From Sporosarcina sp. NCCP-2716 (GTDB lineage Bacteria; Bacillota; Bacilli; Bacillales_A; Planococcaceae), in contig NZ_BRCF01000004.1 of the NCBI RefSeq assembly GCF_023707985.1, positions 186,001-250,000 of the forward strand: a stretch of 64,000 nt of DNA, written 5' to 3'. The translations under genes and the position numbers were made by a program. Below the pieces are notes generated by a model. That model did no database searches and was not told where the DNA came from. It saw nothing but the letters and a program-made list of their open reading frames with translations. Each line of letters opens with the position of its first letter. Within the stretch, counting starts at the first letter, position 1. Shown one piece after another: positions 3,001 to 55,890 of the stretch.

Positions 3001-3172
3001 TATGAGCGGTATTTGGGAGTTATGAGCGCTTTTCAAGATTTATGAGCGCTTTCCGTGATTTATGAGCGCTTTTCGCCATTTATGAGCGTTTTTCAGGATT
3101 TATGAGCGTTTTCACAAATTTATGAGCGTTTCCCACCATTTATGATCGCCTTCCACATTTTACGATCACTCC
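3001..3172 (+). repeat. tandem array L1, nine 20-bp units
   Basis: Starts at 3001, 3021, 3041, 3061, 3081, 3101, 3121, 3141 and 3161, an exact 20-bp period. Consensus TATGAGCGCTTTynnnnATT; the last two units are degenerate (TATGATCG, TACGATCA). On the minus strand the core reads CGCTCATA, sharing CGCTCA with the other arrays in this window. No core element accompanies it. The rest of the gap, 2903-3000, is G-rich with no gene. Confidence 0.93.
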
Positions 3173-3224
3173 GCCCCTCCGTGAAAAAAACTATCCACCA
3201 CCCTCCATTTTACAAACAAAAATC

Positions 3225-3253
3225 TTGCACAGTCCGTCCGTTTTTGTTAAGAT
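3225..3253 (+). promoter_or_regulatory. sigma-A promoter of rpmE
   Basis: TTGCAC at 3225-3230 and TAAGAT at 3248-3253 with a 17-bp spacer. Confidence 0.75.
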
Positions 3254-3259
3254 TAACTC

Positions 3260-3396
3260 ATATGGTTCACACCATATCTGCATATACGGCTGACATATAC
3301 GGGCCGTGTAAGGCATCAGTCTTCTACTGGGAAGGCGTGAGCCGACCAGAATAACAACTCTGTTCCAGATGGTTCAGGGCGAGAGGAGAGAGACCG
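3260..3396 (+). promoter_or_regulatory. structured 5' leader of rpmE, possible L31 autoregulatory leader
   Basis: About 135 nt separate the predicted transcription start from the rpmE ATG. It opens with a perfect hairpin (ATATGG at 3260-3265 / CCATAT at 3272-3277) and holds further paired segments up to the ribosome binding site. Ribosomal-protein leaders are known for L31 in Firmicutes; that this is one is inference. Confidence 0.4.
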
Positions 3397-3609
3397 ATGA
3401 AAGCAGGAATTCATCCAGATTACAAACTTGCAACTGTTTCTTGTTCATGTGGCAACACATTCGAAACAGGTTCTGTCAAAGAAGACATTAAAGTGGAAGT
3501 TTGTTCAGAATGCCACCCATTCTACACTGGACGTCAGAAATTTGCTGCAGCGGACGGCCGTGTCGACCGCTTCAACAAAAAATATGGCATCAAAGAAGAA
3601 GGCAAGTAA
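3397..3609 (+). CDS. rpmE: 50S ribosomal protein L31, zinc-binding form
   Basis: Component of the large ribosomal subunit at the intersubunit bridge. 70 residues, the usual size. It is the zinc-containing (C+) type, with CSC near residues 16-18 and CSEC near 36-39 as ligands. The start ATG follows GAGGAGAG. Position after rho matches Bacillus. It has its own promoter, leader and terminator, so it is probably monocistronic. Confidence 0.96.
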
Positions 3610-3624
3610 GAACGGCTTCTCAAG

Positions 3625-3664
3625 TTCCCGTCCGGTGCATGGCGCCGGACGGGAATTTTATTTT
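3625..3664 (+). terminator. intrinsic terminator of rpmE
   Basis: Stem TTCCCGTCCGG / CCGGACGGGAA with a T-rich tail. Confidence 0.85.
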
Positions 3665-3719
3665 ATCCGCATCATTCATGCACTCCTTCCTATCTCTCAT
3701 TCACGAAAGGGGATTCCTC

Positions 3720-4322
3720 ATGTACGTATCCATGCAAGGCGGATGGATCGAAGTCATCTGCGGCAGCATGTTCTCCGGTAAATCGGAAGAACTCATCCGC
3801 CGGATCCGCCGTGCCCAATTCGCCAAACAGAACATCGCCGTCTTCAAGCCGGCGATCGACAACCGCTACAGCGAAGAGGCGGTCGTCAGCCATAACGGCA
3901 CGACGCTGCTCGCGGTCCCGGTCGCCTCTGCGGCCGATATCCGTGCCGGCGTGACCGACGATTGCGACGTCATTGCCATCGACGAAGCCCAGTTTTTCGA
4001 TGAAGGCATCGTCGACGCGGTCATGGAACTCGCCGACCACGGCTTCCGTGTCATCGTCGCCGGTCTCGACCAGGACTTCCGCGGTGAGCCGTTCGGTCCG
4101 ATGCCGCGCCTCATGGCGGTTGCTGAAATGGTGACCAAGCTCCAGGCGGTCTGCACCGTCTGCGGTTCGCCGTCGAGCCGCACCCAGCGGCTCATCAACG
4201 GCAAACCCGCCGGTGTCGACGATCCGATCATCCTCGTCGGTGCATCGGAAGCGTACGAACCGCGGTGCCGCATGCATCACGACGTGCCAACAGGTGTCTC
4301 CATCGAGATCCCCGCAGAATAA
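3720..4322 (+). CDS. tdk: thymidine kinase
   Basis: Cytosolic type II thymidine kinase, phosphorylating thymidine to dTMP with ATP in the salvage pathway. P-loop GSMFSGKS at residues 15-22, catalytic DEAQFF at 88-93, and the zinc-finger pair CTVC at 145-148 with a late Cys (EPRCRMHH). 200 residues, standard length. The frame is open upstream into rpmE sequence, but the ATG at 3720 follows AAAGGGGA and matches the family N-terminus. It lies between rpmE and prfA as in B. subtilis. Confidence 0.95.
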
Positions 4323-4333
4323 CGACACCACGA

Positions 4334-4364
4334 AGAGACAGGCTGCCCGGCAGACTGTCTCTTT
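4334..4364 (+). terminator. possible weak terminator after tdk
   Basis: Arms AGAGACAG / CTGTCTCT with a 13-base loop, followed by only a short TTG tract. Confidence 0.4.
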
Positions 4365-4475
4365 GTGCACGCGGACCGGCAGTGGGACCATACGCCGTGC
4401 CGAAATCCAAGCACGGATGGAGATGGACCCTTCCGGCCAGACCCAACCAACCAAACTAACCCGAGGTGACCTGCT

Positions 4476-5549
4476 ATGTATGATCGGCTCCAAGCTGTCG
4501 AAGACCGTTACGAAAAACTGAACGAACTGCTGAGTGATCCTGACGTCGTCAGCGACTTGGACAAACTCCGCACGTACTCGAAAGAGCAGTCCGACATCCA
4601 GGAGACCGTCGATGCGTACCGTGAGTACAAACAAGCCCGCTCGGCGGTCGCGGACGCGAAGGAAATGCTCGACGAAGCGGACGGCGAAATGGAAGACCTC
4701 ATCAAAGCCGAACTGCATGAGCAGAAAACGAAGATCGACGTGCTCGAAGAGAAGCTCAAACTGCTGCTCGTGCCGAAAGACCCGAATGACAGCAAGAACG
4801 TCATCATGGAAATACGGGGAGCGGCAGGGGGCGACGAAGCTGCGCTGTTCGCCGCCAAACTGTACCGGATGTACAGCCGGTTCGCTGAACTGAACCACTG
4901 GAAGATCGACGTCATGGATTCCGCACCGACTGAACTCGGCGGCTTCAAGGAGATCATCTTCATGGTGAGCGGCGCCGGCGCCTATTCGAAACTGAAGTTC
5001 GAAAACGGCGCCCACCGCGTACAGCGCGTGCCGGAAACCGAATCGGGCGGCCGTATCCATACTTCGACCGCCACCGTCGCCGTTCTCCCGGAAGCGGAAG
5101 AAGTCGAGATCGTGCTGCACGACAAAGACATCCGGACCGACACGTTCGCGTCATCCGGTCCCGGCGGTCAGTCCGTCAACACGACGATGTCCGCCGTCCG
5201 GCTCACCCACCTGCCGACAGGCATCACCGTCTCCTGCCAGGATGAAAAATCGCAGATCAAAAACAAGGAAAAAGCGATGAAAGTACTGCGCGCCCGTGTC
5301 TACGACAAATTCCAATCGGAAGCCCAGGCGGAATACGATGAAAAACGGAAATCCGCCGTCGGCACCGGCGACCGGTCGGAACGGATCCGCACGTACAACT
5401 TCCCGCAAAACCGGGTCACCGACCACCGCATCGGGCTGACGATCCAGAAGCTCGACCAGGTGATCGAAGGGAAAATGGACGACGTCATCGACGCCCTCAC
5501 GCTCGAAGACCAGGCGCGCCGGCTGGAAAGCATGGAATCCAATGACTGA
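4476..5549 (+). CDS. prfA: peptide chain release factor 1
   Basis: Recognises UAA and UAG in the ribosomal A site and triggers hydrolysis of peptidyl-tRNA. 357 residues. Codon-recognition tripeptide P-x-T is present as PET at 186-188 within [10 protein letters not shown], and the catalytic GGQ is at 230-232. The ATG follows CGAGGTGA. Its last codons overlap prmC, whose product methylates the GGQ glutamine, so the two are translationally coupled. Confidence 0.97.
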
Positions 5550-6393
5550 ACGGATCCACGAAGCGCTGCGCCGGCTGCAAAAACAGCTCGAAGCCCGCGG
5601 CCTGGATGCAAACGCTGCCGTCCTGCTTATGGAACACGTCACACGGAAATCCCGCGCCGCCCTGCTTGCGGACATGCGGGAACCGCTATCGGACAGCGAA
5701 CTGCGGCAATTCGAAGAAGAGAGCGCCGAGCTGCTGACGGGACGCCCCGTCCAGCATATCATCGGCGAAGAATGGTTCTACGGCCGGCCGTTCATCGTCT
5801 CGGAAGACGTCCTCATTCCGCGGCCGGAAACGGAGGAGCTCGTCCAGCACGCGCTGCAGCGGGCGGACAGACTGTTCGGCCATGAACCGATCCGTTTGGC
5901 GGATATCGGAACGGGCAGCGGGGCGATCGCCGTCACGTTCAAACTCGAACGCCCGGATTCGGACGTCACGGCGACGGACATCAGCGCCGCTGCACTCACT
6001 GTCGCTGAAAGTAATGCCGGACGTCACGGCGCAGACGTCGGGTTCCGTCCCGGTGATCTCGCCGAGCCGCTCGCAGGAGAGACATTCGATATCATCCTGT
6101 CCAACCCGCCGTATATAAGCGAAAGCGACGCACCTGACATGTCGCCGACCGTCACCGGATTCGAACCGCACAGCGCGCTGTTCGCGCCGGAAGAAGGGCT
6201 CGTGCTGTACCGCAGACTTGCAGACTCGCTTCCAGGCGTGATCGAAAGCAGAGCGCTCATCGGCCTGGAGATCGGTCATCTGCAAGGGCCCGCCGTCCGC
6301 GATTTATTCCAAAAGGCGTTTCCTGATGCGGCAGTCGACATCGTCAAGGACATCAACGGCAAGGACAGAATGATATTTTGTGAGATTGTGTGA
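5542..6393 (+). CDS. prmC: peptide chain release factor N5-glutamine methyltransferase
   Basis: SAM-dependent enzyme that methylates the glutamine of the GGQ motif in release factors. N-terminal helical domain, IPRPETE at 92-98, SAM-binding DIGTGSG at 121-127 and the catalytic NPPY at 188-191. 283 residues. It overlaps prfA by 8 bases, the usual Firmicute arrangement. The 3' end of the gene carries a sigma-F-like promoter and a DnaA box that serve the downstream region. Confidence 0.96.
6343..6372 (+). promoter_or_regulatory. possible sigma-F promoter of spoIIR
   Basis: GGACAGAATG at 6363-6372 matches the sigma-F -10 consensus GGnnAnAWTR exactly; 15 bp upstream is GTCAA, a poor match to the GYATA -35. 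It lies inside the end of prmC, about 70 bases before the spoIIR start. spoIIR is a sigma-F gene in B. subtilis. Confidence 0.45.
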
Positions 6394-6459
6394 ATAAATC
6401 CATACCCCCTTGTCCACAATGAGGTCAGGAGGGGATGACATGTTACAAGATTATCCACA
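6389..6459. promoter_or_regulatory. DnaA-box cluster, left half
   Basis: TGTGAATAA at 6389-6397 (reverse of TTATTCACA, a perfect TTATNCACA), TTGTCCACA at 6410-6418 (one mismatch) and TTATCCACA at 6451-6459 (perfect). They straddle the prmC stop and the spoIIR start. Confidence 0.75.
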
Positions 6460-7021
6460 GTTCACAGACTCGCAGATTGCACGCACTGATTCAACACATA
6501 TATGGAAGAAACGGTTCATCACACTCGCGGAGTTCCTGCTCATCATAGTGATGCTGCAGGCGGTTCTCGCACTCTTCCAGACGCACGAAGCGGAAGAACC
6601 CGTCCGCTACCGGATCCTCGCACATTCCGATGCGCCTGCCGACCAGGCCGTCAAAGTGCGGATCCAGCAGCAAGTCGAACCGATGATCGCAAAAGCACTC
6701 GCAACCGCCGTCACGCCGGCCGAAATCGACGCGGCGCTCACCGGCCTTGAAGCCGAGATGCTCGCCGCGGCCCGCCAGCTGTCGCCGGACCGGACGATCA
6801 CGCTCGAGCGGAAGAACGCCCTGTTCCCGGCGAAGCGGACAGGCCTCTGGATCAGCCCGCAGGATACGTACGATGCCTATGTGATGACGATCGGCAGCGG
6901 CAAGGGATCGAACTGGTGGTGCTCGGTCTTTCCGAAAGTCTGCTACGACGAAAAGGAGGAAGAGGATGAAGAACCGGTCAAGTTCTTCGTCTGGGAGTGG
7001 ATAACTTCCATCTTCGCCTGA
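6440..7021 (+). CDS. spoIIR: stage II sporulation protein R
   Basis: Forespore-made signalling protein that leads to SpoIIGA-dependent activation of pro-sigma-E in the mother cell. 193 residues: cytoplasmic head, one membrane segment near residues 25-45 (LAEFLLIIVMLQAVLALF), then the SpoIIR domain with RYRILAHSDAPADQ and the hallmark ITIGSG-like VMTIGSGKGSNWWC. The tail is unusual: a run of acidic residues (EKEEEDEEP) and a hydrophobic end. The ATG at 6440 follows AGGAGGGG at good spacing; an in-frame ATG at 6410 lacks one. It lies between prmC and ywlC; ywlA and ywlB of B. subtilis are missing. Confidence 0.9.
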   Translation: MLQDYPQFTDSQIARTDSTHIWKKRFITLAEFLLIIVMLQAVLALFQTHEAEEPVRYRILAHSDAPADQAVKVRIQQQVEPMIAKALATAVTPAEIDAALTGLEAEMLAAARQLSPDRTITLERKNALFPAKRTGLWISPQDTYDAYVMTIGSGKGSNWWCSVFPKVCYDEKEEEDEEPVKFFVWEWITSIFA

Positions 7022-7038
7022 GAAAGTCCACTGACAAC

Positions 7039-7121
7039 TGTGGATAACTAAATGAAAAGCGGCACGAAGGAGATGAAATGATGCACACTCAGCTTGTGAA
7101 AGTGGATAACCATGTGGATAA
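7039..7121. promoter_or_regulatory. DnaA-box cluster, right half
   Basis: TGTGGATAA at 7039-7047 and at 7113-7121 (both the perfect reverse of TTATCCACA), AGTGGATAA at 7101-7109 (one mismatch), and a weak TGTGGATTG at 7143. The last three lie inside the 5' end of ywlC. Confidence 0.75.
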
Positions 7122-8109
7122 CGACGAAAGTTACCAACAAGTTGTGGATTGTTTGCGGAAAGGGGAAGTCGCTGCGTTTCCGACCGAAACGGTTTACGGC
7201 CTCGGGGCGCTCGCGACGGATCCGGAAGCGGCGCGCAAAATTTTTGAAGCGAAAGGCCGTCCTTCCGACAATCCGCTCATCGTACATATCGGAACAAAAG
7301 AGGAAGCCGGGCGCTATGCGGCGGAAATCTCGGAAACAGCCGTCCGTCTCATGGACGCTTTCTGGCCGGGACCGCTAACACTGATCTTCAAGGAGCGGCC
7401 GGGCGTCATCGCAAAAAGCGTGACAGTGGGCATCGGCACGGTCGGCCTGCGCATGCCGGACCATCCCGTTGCGTTAAGGCTGCTGCGCATGCTCGGCGGG
7501 CCGCTCGCCGCACCGAGCGCCAACCGGAGCGGCAAACCAAGTCCGACCGAGGCGGCGCACGTGTTGCACGATCTGGACGGCAAGATTCCGTTCATCCTCG
7601 ACGGCGGTGCGACTGGCGTAGGCGTCGAGTCGACCGTCCTAGACATGACGTCCGTCCCGCCCGCGATCCTGCGGCCGGGCGGTATTACGGCTGAAATGAT
7701 CGAAGACGTCATCGGTCCTGTCCGCACCGAAACGGGCGCCGCAGAAGAGGAAGCGCCGAAAGCACCGGGCATGAAGTACATGCATTATTCGCCCGATGCG
7801 CCGGTCTGGCTCGTCGAGGCGGATGAGGACACAATCCGGCAGGCGATCCGTGTATTCTCAAAAGACGGCGGCAAAGTCGCCGTCATCGGCCCGGATGAGC
7901 TGCGGACGGACGAAGCCGGCTGGTATTTCGCAACCGGCCCGTACGCGGATCCCGGCAGTCTTGCAGCCCGTCTCTACGGAGCGCTCCGGGCGTGCGATGA
8001 CACCGCCGCGACCGTCATCCTCGCTGTGGAAACACCGCTTGAAGGGATGGGGCTCGCCGTCATAAACCGCCTGAAAAAAGCGGCGGACGGCAAACGGTTC
8101 ATCCGATAG
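7078..8109 (+). CDS. ywlC: L-threonylcarbamoyladenylate synthase (Sua5/YwlC)
   Basis: Makes threonylcarbamoyl-AMP from threonine, bicarbonate and ATP for the t6A37 modification of ANN-decoding tRNAs. N-terminal YrdC domain (FPTETVYGLGALATD, KGRPSDNPLIVHI, APSANRSGKPSPT) followed by the Sua5 C-terminal domain (KAPGMKYMHYSPDAPVWLVE). 343 residues, the long two-domain Sua5 form. Start at the first of two adjacent ATG codons behind AAGGAG; the second, 7081, is equally possible. The variable N-terminus KVDNHVDN is encoded by two DnaA boxes, suggesting DNA-level constraint there. Confidence 0.94.
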   Translation: MMHTQLVKVDNHVDNDESYQQVVDCLRKGEVAAFPTETVYGLGALATDPEAARKIFEAKGRPSDNPLIVHIGTKEEAGRYAAEISETAVRLMDAFWPGPLTLIFKERPGVIAKSVTVGIGTVGLRMPDHPVALRLLRMLGGPLAAPSANRSGKPSPTEAAHVLHDLDGKIPFILDGGATGVGVESTVLDMTSVPPAILRPGGITAEMIEDVIGPVRTETGAAEEEAPKAPGMKYMHYSPDAPVWLVEADEDTIRQAIRVFSKDGGKVAVIGPDELRTDEAGWYFATGPYADPGSLAARLYGALRACDDTAATVILAVETPLEGMGLAVINRLKKAADGKRFIR

Positions 8110-8144
8110 AACGCACTTTCCAATCGAATACAATTCATGAATGG

Positions 8145-8198
8145 CCTCCCCGGGCGCCGCATAAGATGGACTGGCGCAAACTCGGGGAGGTTCTTTTA
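8145..8198 (+). promoter_or_regulatory. hairpin sequestering the mntP ribosome binding site, or terminator
   Basis: CCTCCCCG at 8145-8152 is complementary to CGGGGAGG at 8183-8190, with an inner stem GCGCC at 8154-8158 / GGCGC at 8173-8177, then TTCTTTTATT. The 3' arm contains the GGGGAGG that serves the mntP start at 8199. Confidence 0.6.
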
Positions 8199-8699
8199 TT
8201 GGTTGAACTCATTGCGGCAGCGGTGACAACGATTGACATCCTCGTCATCTATACATTGCTGCACGTACGGAAACGGAAGTGGCTCATCGCTCTGTGGACG
8301 GGATTCCTGAACGTCCTATTCCCGCTTGCCGGCTTCCTGATGGGGGAGTGGTCGGCGCATTTGTTCTCGGAATGGAGCAGCATCCTGTCGAGCGTCCTGC
8401 TGACCCTGCTTGGTGTACATATGGTGCTTCAGGAGGAGGATCCCGCCTCCCAGAAGTTGACCGGACCGCTGTTGCTGGCGGTGGCTGTCAGCCTGGACGG
8501 TTTTTCCATCAGCATGTCTTTCGGCTTGATCCAGCTCAATATGGTGCTGTTCGTTGCGGCGACAGGTTTCCTGTCACTCGTGCTTTCGTATGTAGCTTTA
8601 CGGATGAATCTCACCATGTCGCCGAGGATCCGCTCATGCCTGAGACGTTTTGCAGGGTTCGTCTTGATCGGCATGGGGATATTGGCATGGATTTCGTAA
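8199..8699 (+). CDS. mntP: MntP-like manganese efflux pump (YwlD)
   Basis: Integral membrane protein with about six hydrophobic segments and the family signature SLDGFSISMSFGL, close to the SLDAFSVG motif of MntP/YtaF exporters. 166 residues from a TTG at 8199, chosen because GGGGAGG (8184-8190) sits 8 bases upstream; an ATG at 8166 in the same frame would start inside the hairpin arm with no binding site. The first acidic motif of canonical MntP is weakly conserved (TTIDILVIY), so the substrate is less certain than the family. Position between ywlC and ywlE matches ywlD. Confidence 0.8.
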   Translation: MVELIAAAVTTIDILVIYTLLHVRKRKWLIALWTGFLNVLFPLAGFLMGEWSAHLFSEWSSILSSVLLTLLGVHMVLQEEDPASQKLTGPLLLAVAVSLDGFSISMSFGLIQLNMVLFVAATGFLSLVLSYVALRMNLTMSPRIRSCLRRFAGFVLIGMGILAWIS

Positions 8700-8753
8700 A
8701 ATAACTGTTTCGGTTTCAGGATGAATCAGGTATGATGGAGATAGGTGATCATC

Positions 8754-9197
8754 ATGAATATTTGTTTTATTTGCACAGGAAATACATGCAGAAGCCCGCT
8801 CGCTGAAGGGATCCTGAAGTCCCGGCGGCTGCCGGGCGTGAATGTCCGGTCGGCAGGACTGTATGTGGCGGACGGCCAGCCGATTTCAGTGAATTCCAGG
8901 CGGTTGTTGGAAGGAAAAGGATACCCTTACACACCGTCCGCCCGCCTGTTCTCCGGACAGGATGCCGAATGGGCAGACCTGATTTTGACAATGACAGAGG
9001 CGCACCGGGACACGATCCGGCGGATGTATGAAGGGTACGCGGACAAGGTGTTCACACTGAAGGAATTCACGGGGGATGCAGTGCTCGATGTCATGGACCC
9101 GTTCGGCGGCAGTTACGAAGTATATGAACAGACGCTCGCTGAACTCGAAGGGCAGATCGATGTACTGGCGCGCAAGTTACAGGAGGAACAGACATGA
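8754..9197 (+). CDS. ywlE: protein-arginine phosphatase YwlE (low-molecular-weight phosphatase fold)
   Basis: Removes phosphate from phosphoarginine placed on proteins by the McsB kinase, in heat-shock control and ClpCP targeting. The P-loop CTGNTCRS (residues 7-14) has Thr-11 where tyrosine phosphatases have Ile; in this family that Thr is known to give arginine specificity. General-acid motif DPFGGS near residue 120. 147 residues. ATG 8754 is chosen from alignment with B. subtilis YwlE ([15 protein letters not shown]); a GTG at 8745 is the alternative. The gene overlaps the next one by 4 bases. Confidence 0.93.
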
Positions 9198-10486: not shown

Positions 10487-10487
10487 G

Positions 10488-10514
10488 AAAGCCGGCCGCG
10501 TGCCGGTTTTTTCA
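10488..10514 (+). terminator. intrinsic terminator after the MCP gene
   Basis: Arms CCGGC / GCCGG with loop CGCGT, followed by six T. Confidence 0.7.
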
Positions 10515-10601
10515 ATTGTCCGGAAGAAAACTTGCCACTGTGTTTTTCAGCGCAAGAGTGATAGAATCTATTGTAAGTATATTATGAAAAGAGGGACCTA
10601 C

Positions 10602-11042: not shown

Positions 11043-11059
11043 GAAACGGGGGGAGCAGC

Positions 11060-11617: not shown

Positions 11618-11662
11618 ACTTCGGGACAGTACGACCAAAAAGACGCTAAAGGGGAAATGATC

Positions 11663-12916: not shown

Positions 12917-12925
12917 GACGCATTG

Positions 12926-12962
12926 CAAAAAACCGCCATCCTCTCAGGACGGCGGTTTTTTG
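12926..12962 (+). terminator. intrinsic terminator of glyA
   Basis: AAAAAACCGCC / GGCGGTTTTTT stem and loop with a T-run. The A-run upstream makes it potentially bidirectional. Confidence 0.9.
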
Positions 12963-13033
12963 CTGCTCCGAAACTTTTTTTCGCGGTACCTGTGCGTCGC
13001 ACAATTCGGAAACGATTCAGAATAGTGTCCATC

Positions 13034-13346
13034 TGCCGATTAACTTGCCCGTTTGGCCGATTGTGCGCTCCATCTGGCCGATTCATGCGCCGATTTGGCC
13101 GATTCCGTACGCCATTTGGCCGATAAGCCCTCGGATTTGGCCGATTCCCAGGCGAATGGGGAAGCCGAACAGAAACGAGCGCAGCGAGCACACTTCAAGC
13201 CCTCCACGGTTGCGAGTTGTGTCCATTTGCCGATTAACTTGCTCACCTGGCCGATAACTCTCTCCATCTGGCCGATTCATGCGCCGATTTGGCCGATTCC
13301 GTACGCCATTTGGCCGATAAGCCGCACCATTTGGCCAATTCCCACC
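13034..13346 (+). repeat. composite locus L2: two six-unit 21-bp arrays around an inverted core
   Basis: Left array units start at 13034, 13055, 13076, 13097, 13118 and 13139; right array at 13228, 13249, 13270, 13291, 13312 and 13333. Both have an exact 21-bp period, with core GGCCGATT and a variable half. Corresponding units of the two arrays are nearly identical at an offset of 194 bp, so one array copies the other. Between them, at about 13165-13216, is the shared core element seen at four other loci, here on the opposite strand. Confidence 0.93.
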
Positions 13347-13449
13347 CGATCTCCCCAAGAATCACCCCGCACCAGCCGCAATCCCCCCCCCGCGCAAATC
13401 TTCCGCGAATTCCAAACTTCAGCCGATGCAACCTAACGTGTCCCCATTC

Positions 13450-13458: not shown

Positions 13459-13488
13459 GATTGAGACAACGTAAAAGGAGCGATTCCA

Positions 13489-26957: not shown

Positions 26958-27431
26958 GAAGCGCTCAATTAATGCCGCTAACCGCTCCATTGTGGCAGCT
27001 AACCGCTCCATTCCGGCGGCTAATCGATCAATTGTGCATAACCGCTCAATACGTCTCCATAACCGCTCAATTGCCGCCGCTAACCGCTCCATTCCCGCGG
27101 TCACCGGCCCCATTCCCACCGATTTCCGGTAGTCGCGACAATTCAGCACAGCCCGAACTTCAAAACCAAGATTGAATGGTCAGCTCCGCTGCGCTCCGCA
27201 TTTTCTGTTCGTGTCGTGCCGGCCCAGTTGCCCCCCCATGTCACCTGGAACCTACGCGAGAACCGCTCAAGCCAGCCCCAAAAGCGCTCAAGCCCCCATG
27301 CGACCCGCTCAAGCCAGCCCCAAAAGCGCTCAAGTCCCCATGCGAACCGCTCAAGCAAGCCCCAAAAGCGCTCAAGCCGACCCCATAACCGCTCAAGCCA
27401 CCACAATAACCGCTCAAGCCCACCCCTCCCA
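26958..27431 (+). repeat. composite locus L3: two 21-bp arrays around the core element
   Basis: Left array: seven units from 26958, core TAACCGCTCMATT, 21 bp each except the unit at 27021, which is 18 bp. Core element 27133-27213 (TCGCGACAATTCA, AAAACCAAGATT, CCGCTGCGCTCCGC, TTTTCTGTTCGTG). Right array: eight CGCTCAAG units at 27264, 27285, 27306, 27327, 27348, 27369, 27390 and 27411, exactly 21 bp. Confidence 0.93.
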
Positions 27432-27507: not shown

Positions 27508-27792
27508 GTGCACGAACAAATCCGGAGGCGCAGTGTCCGCCTCGGCAACTTGCTCATCGAAACCGGGCTCACCGTACGGGCGCTCGCAAAAGCGACAGGC
27601 TACTCGAAAAGCACCATCCACAAGGACCTGACAGAACGGCTGCCCAACATCGATGCGGCACTATCGGAAGACGTTGCCAAAATCCTGGCCTATCACAAAT
27701 CGATCCGTCACTTGCGGGGAGGCGAAGCCACCCGGCAGAAATGGAAACTCGAACAGCAGAAACTGAATGAACTTGCGGAAAAAACGGACTAG
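27508..27792 (+). CDS. spoIIID: sporulation transcriptional regulator SpoIIID
   Basis: Mother-cell DNA-binding protein that adjusts the sigma-E regulon and prepares for sigma-K. 94 residues with the helix-turn-helix VRALAKATGYSKSTIHKDL and the invariant YHKSIRHLRGGEAT basic segment. The GTG start follows GGAAGAGG. Own sigma-E promoter upstream; mbl downstream, as in Bacillus. Confidence 0.96.
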   Translation: MHEQIRRRSVRLGNLLIETGLTVRALAKATGYSKSTIHKDLTERLPNIDAALSEDVAKILAYHKSIRHLRGGEATRQKWKLEQQKLNELAEKTD

Positions 27793-43782: not shown

Positions 43783-43789
43783 CCCGTGA

Positions 43790-43819: not shown

Positions 43820-43854
43820 TGGGTTTTTTCGTGGGGATGAACTGCAGGCGATCG

Positions 43855-44035
43855 GCTGACCGCTCGATTCGGGGCGCTGAGCGATCAATACGCACGGCTA
43901 AGCGATCAATTCGGGGCGCTAAGCGATCAATTCATGTCGCTGACCGCTCAATTCCGGCCGCTAACCGCTCAATTCCCGTGGCTGACCGATCAATTCCCCT
44001 CGCTGACCGCTCCATTCCCGCCACCAACCAGCCCC
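43855..44035 (+). repeat. tandem array L4, 21-bp units
   Basis: Eight units start at 43855, 43876, 43897, 43918, 43939, 43960, 43981 and 44002, exactly 21 bp apart. Core GCTGACCGCTCAATT with CGATCA and CGCTCG variants. No core element or second array here. The remaining 44036-44277 shows no gene. Confidence 0.93.
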
Positions 44036-49245: not shown

Positions 49246-49256
49246 CCAACACGAAA

Positions 49257-49283
49257 AAGGGTGCCCGCGGGCACCCTTTTTTG
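49257..49283 (+). terminator. intrinsic terminator of the large protease
   Basis: GGGTGCCCGCGGGCACCC palindrome followed by six T. Confidence 0.92.
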
Positions 49284-49305
49284 CGTGCGGCGGGGCGGGG
49301 GCTCG

Positions 49306-49740
49306 GCTGACCGCTCGATTATCACCGCTAACCGATCAATACCCGCGGCGAACCGCTCGATTGCCACCGCTAACCGATCAATACCCGCGGCTGACCGCTC
49401 GATTGCCACTGCTAACCGATCAATACTCGCGGCTGACCGCTCGATTCCGCGGCAAGCCACCCCCGTCCTCCCCGACAAATTGCTCGCGACCATTCCTATT
49501 TTCCACCAGTTCAAGGGACTGAATGGTGGGCTCCGCGCTGCTCCGCCTTTTCTGTTCGTGTCTTCGCGGCATTAATACCATTCACTGAACCCGGCTCATC
49601 GAAACGCTCAAGTTGGAGGCACAACCGCTCAAGCAACCGGAGAAGCGCTCAAGCATGAGCTCGAAACGCTCAAGGCATGCACTCAAACGCTCAAGCAAAC
49701 GCACAAACGCTCATGCAAGTGCTACAACCGCTCAAGCCCA
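49306..49740 (+). repeat. composite locus L5: two arrays around the core element
   Basis: Left array: seven units at 49306, 49327, 49348, 49369, 49390, 49411 and 49432 (exactly 21 bp), alternating GCTGACCGCTCGATT and GCTAACCGATCAATA, giving a 42-bp higher-order period. Core element 49484-49562 (TCGCGACCATTC to TTTTCTGTTCGTG). Right array: CGCTCAAG-type units at 49605, 49626, 49646, 49667, 49688, 49708 and 49729 (20-21 bp). Confidence 0.92.
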
Positions 49741-49870
49741 CGACCACAACATCTCCAATAAATCACCCACCAGTTGACCCCCAACTCACCAAAGTCAACT
49801 ATCACTCTATTGAATCACCCGCTGATTGACATATACTTAACCTAACACCACAAACGAAGGAGGGGACAGC

Positions 49871-50971
49871 ATGCTGCAGATCGGTTCCATCATCCACCGC
49901 GAACGCCAGCACCGCCAGATTACGCAGGAAACACTCGCCGCCCATTGCCAAGTATCAAAGGCGTCCGTGTCCAAATGGGAGAAAGGGCAGAGCTACCCGG
50001 ACATCACGCTGCTGCCGAAAATCGCCGCCTATTTCGACCTCACCGTCGACGAACTGCTCGGCTATGAGCAGACACTCTCGAAACAGCAGATCCGCACACT
50101 GTACATGGACTACTCGAAACGGTTCGCGCACGAGCCGTTCGACGATGTCTACCCGGACGTCCTCGACGACGTCCGGCACGGCTACCGCGATGCCGGGCTG
50201 CTGCTGCAGATGAGCGTCCTCATGCTGAACCACTGTGTCCTCGCACCCGAGCCGCCGTCCGTCCTGGCTGCGGCAGGCCGCTGGCTCGAGCGCATCCGCA
50301 CATTGTCCGACGACGTCTGGGTGCTCCGCCAGGTCAACTCGCTCCAGGCGACGATCGCTTCGATGCAAGGTGATCCGGAAACGACACTCCGTCTGCTCGA
50401 CGGCGTCATCCGGCCGAGCATCGGCGACGAGGCGCTGCTGTCGACCGCCTACGAACAGCTCGGGCGGACGGACGACGCGAAGCGCACGATCCAGGTCGCG
50501 ATGTACCAGAACCTCCTGCAGCTTGTCGGCGCCGCGCCGCATTACCTGCGCCTGGCCGCGGACGACCGCGGGGCATCCGCTGAAACGCTCCGGCGCACCG
50601 ACGGCATCATCGATCTGTACGAACTGGAACAGCTCCACCCGAACGTCTGCCTGCTGTACTACATCGGCACCGCCCAGGCAGCCGCCGCCCAGGAAAACCG
50701 CGCGCAGCTGTACGCGTATTTATCCAAATATGTCCGGGTTTCAACGAAGTACCTGTTCCCGGTCGACTTGCACGGCGACCGCTACTTCGACCGGCTCGAC
50801 GGCTGGATGGAAGAACTCGACCTCGGCACGAGCGCCTTGCGCAGCGACCGGCTCGTCAAACAGTCGGTCTTCGATGTCCTCGACGCACCGTATTTCACGC
50901 CGTACCAGGGCGACCAGGAAATGAAAGACTTAAAAGCCGAACTCCGCTTCGGACTGGAGGGAATCCAATGA
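49871..50971 (+). CDS. XRE-family regulator with helical repeat domain
   Basis: 366 residues. Helix-turn-helix in the first 65 (QITQETLAAHCQVSKASVSK, WEKGQSYPDI), then a long Ala/Leu-rich helical region that looks TPR-like (AGRWLERIRTLSDDVWVLRQ, ATIASMQGDPETTLRLLDG), suggesting a signal-binding regulator. ATG follows GAAGGAGGGGA. It overlaps the next gene by ATGA and so is co-translated with a YxlEFG-like ABC system; it takes the regulatory place that SigY holds in B. subtilis. Confidence 0.88.
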   Translation: MLQIGSIIHRERQHRQITQETLAAHCQVSKASVSKWEKGQSYPDITLLPKIAAYFDLTVDELLGYEQTLSKQQIRTLYMDYSKRFAHEPFDDVYPDVLDDVRHGYRDAGLLLQMSVLMLNHCVLAPEPPSVLAAAGRWLERIRTLSDDVWVLRQVNSLQATIASMQGDPETTLRLLDGVIRPSIGDEALLSTAYEQLGRTDDAKRTIQVAMYQNLLQLVGAAPHYLRLAADDRGASAETLRRTDGIIDLYELEQLHPNVCLLYYIGTAQAAAAQENRAQLYAYLSKYVRVSTKYLFPVDLHGDRYFDRLDGWMEELDLGTSALRSDRLVKQSVFDVLDAPYFTPYQGDQEMKDLKAELRFGLEGIQ

Positions 50972-51189
50972 ACAATGATATCGACATGCTCATCGAATAC
51001 TTGCCGTTCCTCGTGCCGCTCATCGTCCTGCAAGTCGGCCTCGCAATCTTTTCGGCGATCCACGTCATCCGCCACCCGCACTACCGCTTCGGCAATCAAA
51101 TCATGTGGCTGCTGATCGTCGTCTTCATCCAATTCCTCGGCCCGCTTGCCTATTTCACCATAGGAAGGGGGGACCGGCATGATCATTGA
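50968..51189 (+). CDS. small PLDc_N-type membrane protein (YxlE-like)
   Basis: 73 residues, two membrane helices (LVPLIVLQVGLAIFSAIHVI and IMWLLIVVFIQFLGPLAYFTIGR in part), with the conserved pattern NQIMWLLIVVFIQFLGPLAY. The phospholipase D name comes from the domain only; no catalytic residues are present. Overlaps genes on both sides, so it belongs to one operon with the ABC transporter. Confidence 0.87.
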   Translation: MNNDIDMLIEYLPFLVPLIVLQVGLAIFSAIHVIRHPHYRFGNQIMWLLIVVFIQFLGPLAYFTIGRGDRHDH

Positions 51190-52078
51190 AGTGAAGAACG
51201 TCACCAAACGGTTCGGTGCCAATGAAGTGCTGAAAGGCATCGACCTAGCGATACCGGAGCGCACGATCTGCGGTTTCGTCGGTGCGAACGGCGCCGGCAA
51301 GACGACGCTCATGCACTGCATGCTCGGGCTCATCCCGGTCACGACCGGCACGATCACGATCGCAGGCACGCCCGTCACATTCGGCCAGACCGCCTCGAAC
51401 GAGCACGTCGGCTACCTGCCTGACGTCCCGGAATTCTACCCGTTCTACAGCGCACGAGACTACCTGGACCTGTGCGCCGTCATCACGAAACTGCCAAAAT
51501 CGGAAAGCAGCACCCGCATCGCCGAGCTGCTCGACCTCGTCGGCTTAAGCGGCAACAAACGAGTGATCAGCACCTACTCCCGCGGCATGAAACAGCGGCT
51601 CGGCATTGCGCAGGCACTGCTCAACCGGCCGAAACTGCTCATCTGCGACGAACCGACTTCCGCCCTGGACCCCGCCGGCCGCGCGCAGATCCTGTCGATT
51701 CTGCAGGAAGCGAAGAAGGAGACCGCCGTATTCTTTTCGACGCATATTCTATCCGACGCGGAACAGATCTGCGACCGCATCGCCATGCTGCACGAAGGCC
51801 GGCTCATCTTTAACGACGACCTGCACCGTCTCGACGAGCAGACTTCCGGTGAATTCGCCTTCACATTCGCGCATCATACTATAGAAGAAACACGCGCACG
51901 GCTCGCCGATTACCCGGCCGAACTGCGCATCGATCACGGCGCCCTCATCGCAAGACTTCCTGGTGATGAAGCCCGGCTTTCATTCGCAAAAGAGCTCGCA
52001 AACCGCGGTCTGGTCATCGAAACGATGCAGCCGCACAAGAAGCCTCTCGAAGACGTCGTCATGGAGGTGCTCCGATGA
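51179..52078 (+). CDS. ABC transporter ATP-binding protein (YxlF-like)
   Basis: 299 residues. Walker A GANGAGKTT near residue 36, signature YSRGMKQR, Walker B LLICDEPTSALDP and the H-loop FSTHILSDAEQ. C-terminal extension of about 90 residues typical of drug/antimicrobial exporters. Start overlaps the small membrane gene by 11 bases, with AGGAAGGGGGG upstream. Works with the permease that follows. Confidence 0.94.
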   Translation: MIIEVKNVTKRFGANEVLKGIDLAIPERTICGFVGANGAGKTTLMHCMLGLIPVTTGTITIAGTPVTFGQTASNEHVGYLPDVPEFYPFYSARDYLDLCAVITKLPKSESSTRIAELLDLVGLSGNKRVISTYSRGMKQRLGIAQALLNRPKLLICDEPTSALDPAGRAQILSILQEAKKETAVFFSTHILSDAEQICDRIAMLHEGRLIFNDDLHRLDEQTSGEFAFTFAHHTIEETRARLADYPAELRIDHGALIARLPGDEARLSFAKELANRGLVIETMQPHKKPLEDVVMEVLR

Positions 52079-52839
52079 ATCCCTGGATCGGTTTCCTGAA
52101 AAAAGAATGGACGGAGAGCGTCAAATCGTACAAACTGCTGCTCGTCGCGGTCATCTTCTCGATCCTCGGCGTCCTGAACCCGTTCACCGCCAAGATCACG
52201 CCCGCACTCATGGAGAACTTCATGCCGGAAGGGACGGTCGTCAACATCCCTGAGCCGACCGCGCTCGATTCGTGGCTCCAGTTCTACAGCAACGTCCCGC
52301 AGATGGGCCTCGTCGTGTTCATCCTGCTGTTCTCGACGCTGATGTCGAAGGAACTCGACCGCGGCACACTCGTCATCCTGCTGACGAAAGGCTTGCGCCG
52401 CAGCACCGTCGTCACGACCAAATGGGTCATCGGCGCCGCCTACTGGACGCTCGCATTCCTGCTCGCCTTCAGCATCACGTACGCCTACACCGCCTGGTAT
52501 TGGGATCAATCTATTCTGCATCATCTGGCGTTCGCCGTCAGCTGCGTCTATCTCTTCGGCTTGCTCATGTTCACACTCACGCTGTGGGGGAACACCGTCT
52601 TCGCGACAGGCTACGGCGGCCTGCTCGCCGCTGTGCTCGCCGTCATCGCGCTCTTCATCGCCGCGCTGTTCCCGGGGACCGACGCCTGGAACCCGATCGG
52701 ACTGCTGACGTCGTCACCCGGCCTGCTCACCGGCGACGCACCCTTGAGTGATTTCACCGGCCCGCTGCTCGTCTCAATCGGCGCAATCGCCGTTCTGCTC
52801 GGGGCGACCGTATTTCATTTCAATAAAAAAGTATTGTAG
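52075..52839 (+). CDS. ABC-2 type transporter permease (YxlG-like)
   Basis: 254 residues, six membrane helices (for example LLLVAVIFSILGVLNPF, VVFILLFSTLMSKELD, LLAAVLAVIALFIAALFPG). The conserved ELDRGTLVILLTKGLRR lies after helix 2 as in this family. Overlaps the ATPase gene by ATGA. Substrate unknown; a self-protection or bacteriocin-export role is inference from the family. Confidence 0.9.
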   Translation: MNPWIGFLKKEWTESVKSYKLLLVAVIFSILGVLNPFTAKITPALMENFMPEGTVVNIPEPTALDSWLQFYSNVPQMGLVVFILLFSTLMSKELDRGTLVILLTKGLRRSTVVTTKWVIGAAYWTLAFLLAFSITYAYTAWYWDQSILHHLAFAVSCVYLFGLLMFTLTLWGNTVFATGYGGLLAAVLAVIALFIAALFPGTDAWNPIGLLTSSPGLLTGDAPLSDFTGPLLVSIGAIAVLLGATVFHFNKKVL

Positions 52840-52910
52840 ACCCGAAATGAGCGTGACACGGCGTTTCAAGGGTATACTAGGGGAGACTACGAGAGAAGGA
52901 GAGCTGCCCC

Positions 52911-53510
52911 ATGGACATCCACGAAAAAGCCATCCGCCTGCTGCAGGAAAAGGCCGAGCAGCCGAACCGATCACGGAAAACAACCTCGTCGAAATATAAA
53001 AAGAGCACGAAGGAAGTCGCCGATTACGTCGTCCTCGACTTCGAGACGACCGGCCTGCGCGCCGGTGCTGACCGCATCATCCAGATCGGCGCCATCCGCT
53101 ACTTCAAGCATTGGAAAGACGAAGAACTGGATGTGCTCATCAACCCGCAGCGCCACATTTCACCGACCATCACACGCATCACTGGCATCTCGAACGAAAT
53201 GGTCGCCGACGCGCCTATCATCGAAGACAAACTCGCGGAACTCGTCGACTTCATCGGCGACCTGCCCATCATCGCGCACAACGCCGCCTTCGACATGGGC
53301 TTCCTGTACGCGCTCGACGGCAAGGCCGGCATCACCCTCCCGGCTTACACCGTCATCGACACCGTCAAACTCGCACGCCAAAAGATCAAAGACACACCCA
53401 ATCACAAACTCACAACCCTCACCCAGTACTTACAGCTCGAACACGACGCCCACAACGCAATCGGCGACTGCCGCGCGACTGCGGCGATTTACCAGCACTG
53501 CATATTATAA
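52911..53510 (+). CDS. DnaQ-type 3'-5' exonuclease, intact
   Basis: 199 residues of the DEDDh family. All catalytic residues are present: D43 and E45 (VVLDFETTG), D128 (AHNAAFDMGFL), H181 and D186 (HNAIGDCRATA). Basic N-terminal tail (KKTTSSKYKKSTK-like) may aid nucleic-acid binding. Closely related to the gene at 43147, which has lost several of these residues. ATG follows GAAGGAGAG. Terminator and array L6 follow. Confidence 0.92.
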   Translation: MDIHEKAIRLLQEKAEQPNRSRKTTSSKYKKSTKEVADYVVLDFETTGLRAGADRIIQIGAIRYFKHWKDEELDVLINPQRHISPTITRITGISNEMVADAPIIEDKLAELVDFIGDLPIIAHNAAFDMGFLYALDGKAGITLPAYTVIDTVKLARQKIKDTPNHKLTTLTQYLQLEHDAHNAIGDCRATAAIYQHCIL

Positions 53511-53540
53511 AAAGGAGCGGCCGAAGCCGCTCCTTTTTGC
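53511..53540 (+). terminator. intrinsic terminator of the second exonuclease gene
   Basis: GGAGCGGC / GCCGCTCC with loop CGAA and five T. Confidence 0.92.
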
Positions 53541-53557
53541 GTAGTACGGCTGCTCAG

Positions 53558-54055
53558 TGCTCAAGTAGGGTGGAAAACGCTCAAGCCAGAAGGAGAAACG
53601 CTCAAGCGAAGCGAGATACGCTCAAGCCAGAAGGTGAAACGCTCAAGCAAGACGAGAAACGCTCAAGCAAGGAGGGGAACCGCTCAAGCGAGGACGAAAA
53701 ACGCTCAAGCAAGACGAAAAACCGCTCAAGTCCGCGGCACAACTTTTGGCATCTACTCCCCAAAAAAAGTCGCGACCATTTAGTCTTTCCCATGTACAGA
53801 GAGCAAAACCAAGATTAACTTGTCTGCTCGCTGCGCTGCGCCTTTTCTGTTAGGTCTACTTCCGCCGACAGTGCCACCACTCAAGAAAGATCCGCCAACC
53901 CTTAGTGCATGCAATGAAGTGCTCAAGCAAGGCGAGAACCGCTCAAGCTAGGAAGAGAAACGCTCAAGCAGGCAGAAGAACCGCTCAAGCGAGGGCGAGA
54001 ACCGCTCAAGCAGTGCCATGAAACGCTCAAGCCAGGCAAGAAACGCTCAAGTCAC
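53558..54055 (+). repeat. composite locus L6: two CGCTCAAG arrays around the core element
   Basis: Left array: nine units at 53558, 53578, 53599, 53619, 53640, 53660, 53681, 53702 and 53723 (20 or 21 bp). Core element 53770-53853 (TCGCGACCATTTA, CCCATGTACAG, AAAACCAAGATTAACTTG, GCTCGCTGCGCTGCGCC, TTTTCTGTTAGG). Right array: units at 53920, 53940, 53961, 53982, 54003, 54024 and 54044, with a degenerate unit at 53877. 54056-54257 shows no gene. Confidence 0.92.
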
Positions 54056-54257
54056 CATCCCTCCCCACACCACCTCCTGCGGAACACCTACATCAGCCTC
54101 ACACAATTCCAACTTGAAAACCAATATAAACACGACTGATCCACGCAGCCATTGGCCCCAGTCAAATTGTGTACAATCCTCGATAATTCGGCTTTGGCAA
54201 AACCCATATACTTTCAAAAGAAGAAGGGCTACACTTAAAAGAAAAAGAGGTGAGGCA

Positions 54258-55214
54258 TTGCTCTACAAACCACGCAAAACCCCGAAAGAACTCATTGCCC
54301 TGCTGGCACTGGAAAAACGAATTGCCCCCACGCATCCACAATACCCGTTGATTTACCAGGAAATGTACAAAATGCGAGCTGGATTCGGTGGTGAGCAAGA
54401 GTACGACCGCCACATGAAAGAAGTCCGAACCGACTACCCGCACGCCATCCTCCATGATCTTTCCCTGCAACAAGAAGGCGTCTACTTCCAAATCGATTCA
54501 CTGTTCATCGCACCTGACGCCATCATCATCTCAGAAATCAAAAACAGAACGGGCAAAATCATCATCAAAGCCAATCCGACTCAGTTCCTCCAGTCTATGA
54601 AGGAAAGCGAACCCTCACTTTTCCGCAGTCCAATCGACGAGCTGGAACGTAAACGGCAGTTGCTGGAAAGGTGGCTGGCCCAACGTAACATCATGGTCCC
54701 TATTCAGTGCATCACCATTTTTGCGCACAACAATATACTAGAATTTAGCGGCAAAACCGAAATCCCGATTCTGACAGGTTATGAAGCACCAATCTTTTTC
54801 AGGGGGAGAGAAACCGGTCCTCATCTGCTAGATAAAAGAAGGATCGAGAAGTTAGCGGCAGCACTGGTCCAACAAGACAAGCCCTATCCGATGCGACCGC
54901 TCAGTACTCGCTTTTCAATTAAAAAAGAAGAGTTGGTGAAGGGCGTCTGGTGTCCCGAATGCCCTGAAAAAACCATCTTGTACTGGAGACATCAGCGCTG
55001 GAATTGTGGAAGGTGCAGCAAAACCAGTCTGACTGAACACGAAACTACAATAGACGAGTGGTTCATGCTCATCACGCCTACTATCACCAACAAGGAATTT
55101 TGTGAATTTACTGGGTTACGCGATCGGCACATTGCCAAACGCCTCCTCGCCCGCAGCAAGGTATATAGAAGGGGAGAGCGGGCCGGCAGCGTCTATGTCC
55201 CTTTGAAAAACTAA
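54258..55214 (+). CDS. NERD-domain protein with C-terminal zinc ribbon
   Basis: 318 residues from a TTG at 54258 behind AAAGAGGTGAGG; the frame is open upstream into repeat sequence but without a start site. NERD (nuclease-related) domain at about 35-160 with YFQIDSLFIAPDAIIISEIK, matching the D...ExK pattern of restriction-like folds. Near residues 235-255 CPECPEKT...WNCGRCSK forms a CxxC/CxxC ribbon. Visibly more AT-rich than its neighbours and flanked by arrays L6 and L7, which hints at acquisition. Possible DNA-processing or defence role; unproven. Confidence 0.85.
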   Translation: MLYKPRKTPKELIALLALEKRIAPTHPQYPLIYQEMYKMRAGFGGEQEYDRHMKEVRTDYPHAILHDLSLQQEGVYFQIDSLFIAPDAIIISEIKNRTGKIIIKANPTQFLQSMKESEPSLFRSPIDELERKRQLLERWLAQRNIMVPIQCITIFAHNNILEFSGKTEIPILTGYEAPIFFRGRETGPHLLDKRRIEKLAAALVQQDKPYPMRPLSTRFSIKKEELVKGVWCPECPEKTILYWRHQRWNCGRCSKTSLTEHETTIDEWFMLITPTITNKEFCEFTGLRDRHIAKRLLARSKVYRRGERAGSVYVPLKN

Positions 55215-55238
55215 CAAGACTGGCAGAATAAAACCTTG

Positions 55239-55269
55239 AAAGGCGTTCCAACCAATGAACGCCTTTTTT
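55239..55269 (+). terminator. intrinsic terminator of the NERD gene
   Basis: AAGGCGTTC / GAACGCC followed by six T. Confidence 0.9.
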
Positions 55270-55332
55270 GGTCGTCAATAAAGTACCGGAAATTTCCGCC
55301 AGTCCCTAGCGTTCTTACCTGTAACGATAAAG

Positions 55333-55890
55333 CGCTCAAGCTCAGTGTGGCATCGCTCAAGGCAGAGGGAGAACCGCTCAAGAGCATGCCGAACCGCTCA
55401 AGCTCAACGCGGAACCGCTCAAGCAAGGGAGCAAAACGCTCAAGTCAGTGGCGCAACGCTCAAGGAAGAAGGAGAAGCGCTCAAGAGCATGCTGAAACGC
55501 TCAAGCCCAGCGGGGAAACGCTCAAGCTCGGCAGGGAAGCGCTCAAGCCCGCGGCATGAACAAAAATCCCCACCCCCAACTAACATCGCGACCATTCATT
55601 CCTTCCCATGCACAGTGAGCAAAACCAGGATTAACTTGTCTGCTCGCTCCGCTGCGCCTTTACTGTTGGGCTGTCTTTGATAACTAGCACCACCATTCAA
55701 ATGTGGTGTTTAAAGATTAAAATAGGGTAGTAGAGCGCTCAAGAGGGGAAGGGAAACGCTCAAGTCATGCCCACAAGCACTCAAGCAGTATCAGAAACGC
55801 TCAAGCATCTAGGGGAAGCGCTCAAGCTATGTGTACAAACGCTCAAGCCCAGCACGCAAACGCTCAAGCACCGCCCACAAACGCTCAAGC
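55333..55890 (+). repeat. composite locus L7: two CGCTCAAG arrays around the core element
   Basis: Left array: eleven units at 55333, 55354, 55375, 55395, 55416, 55437, 55457, 55478, 55498, 55519 and 55540. Core element about 55586-55669, nearly identical to that at L6 (GAGCAAAACCAGGATTAACT, GCTCGCTCCGCTGCGCC). Right array: eight units at 55736, 55757, 55778, 55798, 55819, 55840, 55861 and 55882. Period 20 or 21 bp. Confidence 0.93.

Follow-up and report, generated by a model that had tools for sequence, protein, structure and literature searches.

Satellites of an unusual kind are known from Bacillus: in the parts of Subirana and Messeguer (2021; PMC8161180) drawn on here, they are repeats of constant size, either 20-21 or 52 nt, with variable sequence and unknown function, and a polymerising nucleoid protein or small RNAs were proposed. 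The same authors report that the 52-nt repeats are transcribed in B. coagulans (PMC8161180 and PMC8625621, in the sections used). Such constant-size, free-sequence bacterial satellites are an open puzzle, as far as the sections used of PMC6749651 and PMC8161180 go. Arrays of this already published kind (constant 20-21 and 52 nt) recur in a 64-kb stretch of Sporosarcina sp. NCCP-2716, contig C4, positions 186001-250000, of the genome called G000 in our comparisons; we refer to the whole stretch as the window. Among named sequences, the best matches to the prfA of this genome, at 79-85% identity, come mostly from Sporosarcina. Seven gaps between its genes hold twelve arrays of 20/21-bp units, part of a genome-wide intergenic family. 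The explanation that we lean towards is that these arrays are phased DNA sites for a putative oligomeric protein, probably architectural or insulating in its role at gene 3' ends.

The evidence that carries this explanation comes from the array in the rho-rpmE gap (2999-3160; hereafter the 3001 array), which belongs to class A as defined below and has eight units of 20 bp with the core CGCTCATAA on the - strand. This array is present in all eight best rpmE matches of the 61 genus genomes searched, with eight units in each of the eight species, and is antisense to rho and rpmE in every one (8/8). When seven of these species are aligned, the units are 20 bp long and there are zero gaps inside the array, with many gaps in its flanks. 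The core TTATGA differs in 6 of 1008 pair comparisons (0.6%) and linker positions 10-19 in 577 of 1663 (35%), next to a pair divergence of 0.428 and 0.409 in the two flanks. One of 48 core columns is variable against 60 of 80 linker columns (Fisher 8.6e-18), the C at unit position 8 is kept in 56/56 units, and an earlier analysis of four of these species gave 0/288 core against 104/384 linker differences. The eighth species, G008, has one 21-bp step and six 20-bp steps. Because the core diverges so much less than the linker and the flanks (41-43%), and internal indels are zero, both the core word and its phase are constrained at this locus. An earlier note on this DNA had surmised selection on core and phase, which the seven aligned species bear out; its idea of helically phased DNA sites gains support from the same constraint.

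The window's own copy has GAGC in seven of its eight units, and relatives mix GAGC and GATC. In the relatives' orthologues, as in G010 C10, units tend to alternate between GATCA and GAGCA/GCTCA, and the alternating units carry matching linker starts (CTTT vs GAAT), a pattern suggestive of a conserved double unit of 40 bp. The rho-rpmE gap of G008 (C1:2085187-2087813) is expanded to 2.6 kb by extra sequence, with the orthologous array retained.

The 3001 array is one member of a large family. Tandem 20/21-bp units had been noted at seven loci of the window; Tandem Repeats Finder recovers them at all seven, together with 40-42 and 60-63 bp multiples, and shuffles confirm them, except that there are twelve arrays rather than seven. 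The window has 38 copies of CGCTCAAG-N12/13-CGCTCAAG, whereas 100 dinucleotide shuffles of it yield 0.00 on average. Within nine chained + strand arrays, CGCTCA-type cores follow each other at 21 or 20 bp, the exceptions being one step of 18 bp and two of 41 bp, the latter with one unit skipped. For the wider genome we sampled 850 kb (28% of the genome; the window plus further stretches) from four large contigs, with a word-free detector that looks for a 6-mer recurring at least 4 times at 19-22 or 40-42 bp steps and that dropped beforehand any array more than 50% covered by a called gene. It found 52 gap arrays (23 of class A, 17 B, 4 C, 1 D and 7 without class), an incomplete count in which some arrays are missed: of the twelve in the window it recovers 11, passing over the one at 26962, which Tandem Repeats Finder and the core search both see. 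On block-shuffled rpmE loci the same detector found zero arrays. A search by core defined 38 arrays in 450 kb of this genome. None of them lies inside a called gene, and two overlap gene ends, by 8 and 27 bp; the calls come from a simple codon-usage script that overlooks certain genes, such as the NERD gene and rpmE.

Four core classes can be told apart by these words. Counted over the 450 kb, the steps that span a single unit number, for class A (CGCTCATAA), 131 of 20 bp, 7 of 21, 1 of 19 and 1 of 18; for class B (CGCTCAAG), 24 of 20 and 71 of 21; for class C (CG[CA]TC[ACG]ATT), 47 of 21 and 1 of 18; and for class D (CGGCCAAAT), 2 of 21, the remaining steps in the 38 arrays being multi-unit. 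Thus units of 20 and of 21 bp both occur, as the earlier note had it, with the correction that the length depends on the core family. The word GGCCGATT, treated there as separate, dissolves into the others: its reverse strand is CGGCCAAAT, which lines up by eye with CGCTCATAA, CGCTCAAG and CGATCAATT. The unit is asymmetric, with a core of ~8-11 bp and a free part of 9-12 bp. Core conservation in the core-defined arrays is partly by construction, as they were found through the core, and its G/C letters are conserved as well as its A/T letters; two A's that precede the next core and lie outside the search word are kept in 65/71 and 70/71 of the 21-bp class B units, and in the same units the middle of the free part is close to random (0.05-0.27 bits). 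Array words are almost confined to arrays: in the 850 kb, CGCTCATAAA has 188 copies inside and 3 outside, AACGCTCAAG has 66 inside and 0 outside, and even the shorter word CGCTCAAG occurs outside arrays 21 times against 30.5 expected.

Arrays favour the ends of genes, and convergent over divergent gaps. In the 850 kb they are held by 14/92 convergent, 25/590 co-directional and 4/94 divergent gaps (convergent vs divergent, p=0.013). Among gaps of at least 200 bp the shares are 14/21, 25/126 and 4/49, a comparison in which gap length is itself raised by the arrays. The position between co-directional genes that had been singled out earlier is true of the window and an accident of it, given the convergent gaps elsewhere in the genome. 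A hairpin with a T-run ends ~20-100 bp before the first array at seven of seven window loci, judged by eye, and a crude caller finds a terminator at 28/53 array-facing 3' ends vs 50/155 other 3' ends facing gaps of at least 150 bp (p=0.009; 4/53 and 3/155 on shuffled downstream sequence). The median distance from terminator to array is ~44 bp among the 28. The earlier claim that arrays start after terminators is partly supported, with nearly half of the array-facing 3' ends lacking a called terminator. As to replication polarity, class A follows the contig's majority gene strand in 17/23 arrays, a count in which, as in the one for class B given below, paired arrays are not independent; by eye, arrays of G044 run against the local majority gene strand in 3/6 of its array-bearing sampled stretches.

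This bias towards 3' ends and convergent gaps suggests a boundary or architectural role, and we favour sites on DNA because the 3001 array combines a fixed word, free linkers, a two-turn phase and a conserved antisense orientation with no convincing RNA structure. Each array would be a row of putative protein-binding sites on double-stranded DNA, in which a recognised core of ~8-11 bp (here AAnCGCTCA[A/T]..., generally CGNNCA-like) would be joined to 9-12 bp that would matter by their length and little by their sequence. With cores every 20-21 bp, that is every two helical turns, the putative protein would be aligned on one face of the DNA and could oligomerise there. The resulting nucleoprotein row might serve as an architectural or insulating element, working either as an anchor in the nucleoid or as a boundary for both supercoiling and transcripts that read through. 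One candidate for the binding protein, SpoIIID, whose gene adjoins the 27263 array and whose consensus shares GCTTG with the class B core, was set aside, because SpoIIID is strongly conserved while the cores change between genera.

The arrays are often accompanied, in this clade, by a shared element of ~54 bp that we call the centre. Four of the five array pairs in the window enclose one, an array-centre-array layout that the earlier note overlooked. An nhmmer search, with a profile built up from ten seed copies in the window and G008, gave 35 centres, 21 in the 850 kb of the window's genome and 14 in 400 kb of G008. Thirty of the 35 have at least 3 20/21-bp cores within 300 bp and are co-oriented with them in 30/30 cases, with a single core on the opposite strand, against 14, at one of these. 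The other five, all in the window's genome, adjoin sites of a different layout: at C1:21543, C1:63551 and C2:153029 such sites lie on either side of the centre, at C2:154928 an array of them starts ~100 bp beyond it, and at C1:121805 one site follows the centre while the opposite side reads N. These are 52-bp arrays of alternating inverted CGG[TG]CA[CAG]TA[GA] sites, with start distances of 19 and 33 bp, located with a pattern of that form. In G000 they lie at C1:21300-22050, C1:63200-63900, C2:152500-153250, C2:155057-155308, C2:34434-34748, C3:32745-32981, C3:130090-130498, C4:41734-42268 and C4:94877-95147, some of them around a shared centre. Because the same centre accompanies 20/21-bp arrays and adjoins 52-bp sites, both satellite classes may well be one system here, in which arrays phased at two turns and inverted-site arrays phased at five would share a centre; the likeness of the 52-bp core to CGCTCATAA or CGGCCAAAT is suggestive only. 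Some centre copies hold a hairpin with a T-run. Outside G000 and G008, 212 other loci (90 viral loci excluded) gave 1 match to the centre, in G024. A degenerate reverse centre at 13150-13215 served as a profile seed, yet the final search did not recover it.

Across relatives, the period persists while the words change. The three-unit CGCTCA pattern occurs in 39/61 genus genomes, with 0 to 570 matches per genome across the 61, and 39 is a floor: G005 and G013, without a CGCTCA match, carry arrays of the same period made of other words. A reversed CGCTCA control gave 0 in most genomes and 13 in G014, which has zero true matches. Arrays of any word lie in the loci around rpmE in 20/30, glyA in 17/30 and mbl in 19/30 genomes, the 30 being the best-scoring of the 61 each time. 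In non-coding self-match spectra, both of our sample from the window's genome and of 71 further Bacillales loci, the lags 20/21 and 52 and their multiples prevail. In the 71 loci (at most 21 kb each) the peaks are 52/104, 20/40/60/80, 101 and 21, with weaker ones at 43/86 and 38 in a few loci, and an additional lag of 12 in one Sporosarcina-group locus; seven loci of the B. subtilis and B. pumilus groups (L081, L082, L084, L109, L116, L118, L122) show zero self-match peak. The words are lineage-specific, for example ACGCAAT.A in Rossellomorea aquimaris and TAGCCAAAAC in Neobacillus novalis. Tandem repeats of 42-43 bp with GGGTCAGACCCC, near 13920-14110 in L100, L105, L106, L113 and L120 (Sutcliffiella and Bacillus), are another non-coding period besides 20/21 and 52. 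In viral contigs the three-unit CGCTCA pattern turns up in 90 stretches, mostly as single matches that are uninformative as to a phage origin.

Core variants also differ in frequency from genome to genome. Class A unit pairs led by GATCATAA number 11 vs 378 led by GCTCATAA in the window's genome; across seven close relatives their share is 29-54% (230 GATCATAA-led vs 407 other pairs in G010, 176 vs 152 in G008). GC pressure behind the loss of the GATC core was rejected: G008 has a near-equal GC (0.566 vs 0.576 in the window's genome, ~11.5 kb of loci each), yet its GATC-led pairs (176) outnumber its GCTC-led pairs (152). Such variants shift in concert, genome-wide within a lineage. They enter into a wider idea, possible if doubtful, that a single chromosome-wide system underlies both constant-size satellite classes of Firmicutes. 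Related CGNNCA-type sites would be laid out in it either as direct repeats at a two-turn spacing or as inverted pairs at a five-turn spacing, around a common centre. Fast-diverging paralogous DNA-binding proteins would read these sites and build, at the 3' ends of genes, nucleoprotein rows in phase with the helix, comparable to insulators or to a bacterial satellite chromatin.

G008, syntenic with the window at 80-89% DNA identity, shows how single gaps change. Window gaps with arrays also hold arrays in G008, often of other families. The 43854 gap has class C in the window and class B in G008; the 53559/53880 gap has class B in the window and class C in G008; and the 26962 gap has class C in the window and, in G008, a CCGCCCGTTT-type array followed by the same centre and a class B array. 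In the gaps read, orientation and array-centre-array order are conserved between the two genomes. Array-centre units are duplicated in G008.

These comparisons bear on the alternative that survives best, namely that the arrays are selfish or neutral satellites, spread and homogenised by recombination or dispersal and tolerated behind terminators with no benefit to the host. Their uneven abundance across the 61 genomes would fit it, as would the substitution of class B and C arrays for each other at the same gaps and the duplicated units of G008; in fact, a place behind terminators, away from promoters, is also what is expected of any tolerated intergenic DNA. Homogenisation, however, should even out the linkers too, whereas at the 3001 locus the linkers of seven species diverge near the level of the flanks around fixed cores and without a single indel. 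We regard this explanation as unlikely.

Still less probable is an element acting in RNA, whose transcripts would load Rho in the manner of rut sites, serve as small RNAs or soak up proteins as sponges. Orientation offers it something: in co-directional gaps the core lies in gene sense in 23 arrays and against it in 5 (28 oriented), and C exceeds G on the core strand in 37/45 oriented arrays. The report that B. coagulans transcribes its 52-nt repeats (PMC8161180, PMC8625621, in the sections used) points the same way, and the + strand of the 3001 array folds somewhat better than its shuffles (z -1.81, 6/200 as good). Yet that array runs antisense in each of the eight species, 6 of the 17 class B arrays lack the excess of C over G, the other five array folds range from z -0.86 to +0.75, and the 20/21-bp phase is left unexplained. 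The rut sites suggested by the earlier note find no support at the 3001 array, which is antisense to the read-through transcript in eight species, or in part of class B, where just 11/17 arrays have C>G; with C>G in 37/45 oriented arrays overall, some other arrays might still be such sites. Structured RNA was rejected: six folds of five arrays and a further fold of a centre span z -1.81 to +0.75, no shared structure emerged from RNAalifold on a MAFFT alignment of 34 of the 35 extended centres, the one left out containing N, and Rfam at the gathering threshold found the L31 leader alone in the window. Intrinsic curvature, with A/T tracts bending the DNA every ~10 bp and no sequence-specific protein needed, is very improbable: the A/T second harmonic exceeds column permutation (p<0.05) in 49/100 tested arrays (not independent; 45 from the window's genome, 40 of these listed individually), the listed class A arrays of this genome among them, but none of its listed class B arrays does so (p 0.075 or more), and bending by itself would not keep CGCTCA constant, whose G/C is conserved like its A/T.

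Several observations nevertheless weigh against phased sites for an oligomeric protein, the explanation that we prefer. The constraint on core against linker was measured at one locus, 3001, where the + strand fold is also borderline, and copy number is less steady elsewhere: upstream of mbl, the commonest 6-mer has from 6 to 31 copies across six close relatives, the lowest value sitting near a contig end. The wholesale swap of B and C cores at orthologous gaps indicates that recombination or re-building also shapes arrays, and the coexistence of several core types in one genome calls for either a single tolerant protein or more than one specificity. The orientation of class B arrays matches the majority gene strand of the contig in 17/17 cases, which a plain boundary role does not predict. 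The likeness between 52-bp and 20/21-bp cores is weak, with about four shared positions, and the binding protein is putative throughout.

Besides the 3001 array, the window holds eleven arrays, downstream of genes that Pfam assigns, with rho first, to glyA, an M23 peptidase (spoIIQ-like), two RNase T-type exonucleases, a subtilase-containing protein and a NERD-domain protein. Five loci have two arrays each (13035/13229, 26962/27263, 49304/49605, 53559/53880 and 55333/55736). The L31-Firmicutes ribosomal leader lies before rpmE at 3358-3388 (34.4 bits; gathering 33.3). The glyA-upp gap has a class D array of 21 bp at 13035-13146 on the - strand, with CGGCCAAAT on that strand and GGCCGATT on the + strand (Tandem Repeats Finder, word-free detector), and a second one of the same word at 13229-13318, placed on the - strand by eye where the script gave none; G008 has a TGTCCGATA array in this gap. 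All further arrays and centres are on the + strand, and every centre given here supplied a profile seed. After the M23 peptidase gene come a 21-bp class C array at 26962-27093 (here CG[CA]TC[AC]ATT; Tandem Repeats Finder, core search), a centre at 27160-27211 (nhmmer E 3.3e-15) and a class B array of 8 units at 27263-27419 (Tandem Repeats Finder, core chain, word-free detector). Directly behind the latter lies spoIIID (27508-27792), the gene of a sporulation DNA-binding protein. After the first exonuclease gene a class C array of 8 units of 21 bp occupies 43854-44029, and the large subtilase gene is followed by a class C array of 7 units of 21 bp (49304-49453), a centre (49517-49557; E 1.1e-8) and a class B array of 20/21 bp (49605-49737); Tandem Repeats Finder and the core chain found these three arrays. 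Two class B arrays, at 53559-53730 and 53880-54051, flank a centre at 53801-53853 (E 8e-14) after the second exonuclease gene (both by Tandem Repeats Finder, core chain and word-free detector). The NERD-domain gene (54258-55214) lies between array pairs, and its G008 homologue (46% identical protein) lies in the same place among class C arrays. It is followed by a class B array of 11 units at 55333-55547 (Tandem Repeats Finder, core chain), a centre at 55619-55669 (E 9.4e-12) and a class B array at 55736-55890 (Tandem Repeats Finder, core chain, word-free detector). A 36-bp repeat of 2.6 copies at 56302-56394 lies inside a DUF997 gene, in a frame rich in Pro, Ser and Asn.

How do these arrays compare with described repeats? 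Plasmid iterons are direct repeats spaced about two helical turns apart, whose bound protein can pair arrays; they sit at one origin by a rep gene, whereas here 52 arrays are dispersed over 850 kb, mostly at gene 3' ends. Enterobacterial REP/BIME elements are extragenic and also lie at the 3' ends of genes and where two genes converge, but they are palindromic hairpins, whereas the units here are asymmetric and fold at z -1.81 to +0.75 in six folds. CRISPR repeats and spacers differ in their lengths from a core of ~8-11 bp and a free part of 9-12 bp, and the free parts here recur in 40-63 bp multiples. The STAR elements of Staphylococcus aureus (PMC3532100, in the sections used) are alike in being intergenic direct repeats of unknown function, in which the core is fixed and the spacers vary from locus to locus. 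They are unlike in their unrelated 14-bp core, TNTGTTGNGGCCC, in spacers of at least 40 bp and in having no 20/21-bp phase; the window's core is CGCTCA and its free part 9-12 bp.

Closest are the 20-21 nt repeats of Bacillus, which, in the sections used of PMC8161180, are likewise mostly non-coding, of constant size and variable sequence, with several species-specific families per genome and a short characteristic sequence per species. The arrays here are regular at 20-21 nt with at least 4 copies, non-coding, and species-specific with a short kept word. The 52-nt Firmicutes repeats of the same paper are also present in this genome, outside the window, whose arrays have units of 20/21 bp, and the centre lies beside 52-bp sites at five places; our 52-bp arrays differ in being inverted site pairs every 52 bp, rather than one site in direct repeat. 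Those sections do not deal with gene-end context, orientation, orthologous arrays, core-vs-linker substitution or a shared centre, and the main text of the paper nowhere uses the words Sporosarcina, intergenic, convergent, selection or terminator. The literature searched, parts of PMC8161180 and PMC6749651 included, has no orthologous constraint, convergent-gene bias or shared centre, which is weak evidence of absence. The orthologous constraint, the preference for convergent gaps, the co-oriented shared centre and the antisense 3001 array are what is new here. For the 3001 array, an apparent constraint on size becomes a measured constraint on an 8-bp word, a two-turn phase and a copy number at one locus, and the array can serve as a concrete DNA bait. 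Any protein found with it could belong to a new class of chromosome-organising or insulating factors at gene ends, with a specificity that varies between genera, and the shared centre gives a way into two questions, how arrays spread and why two repeat sizes exist.

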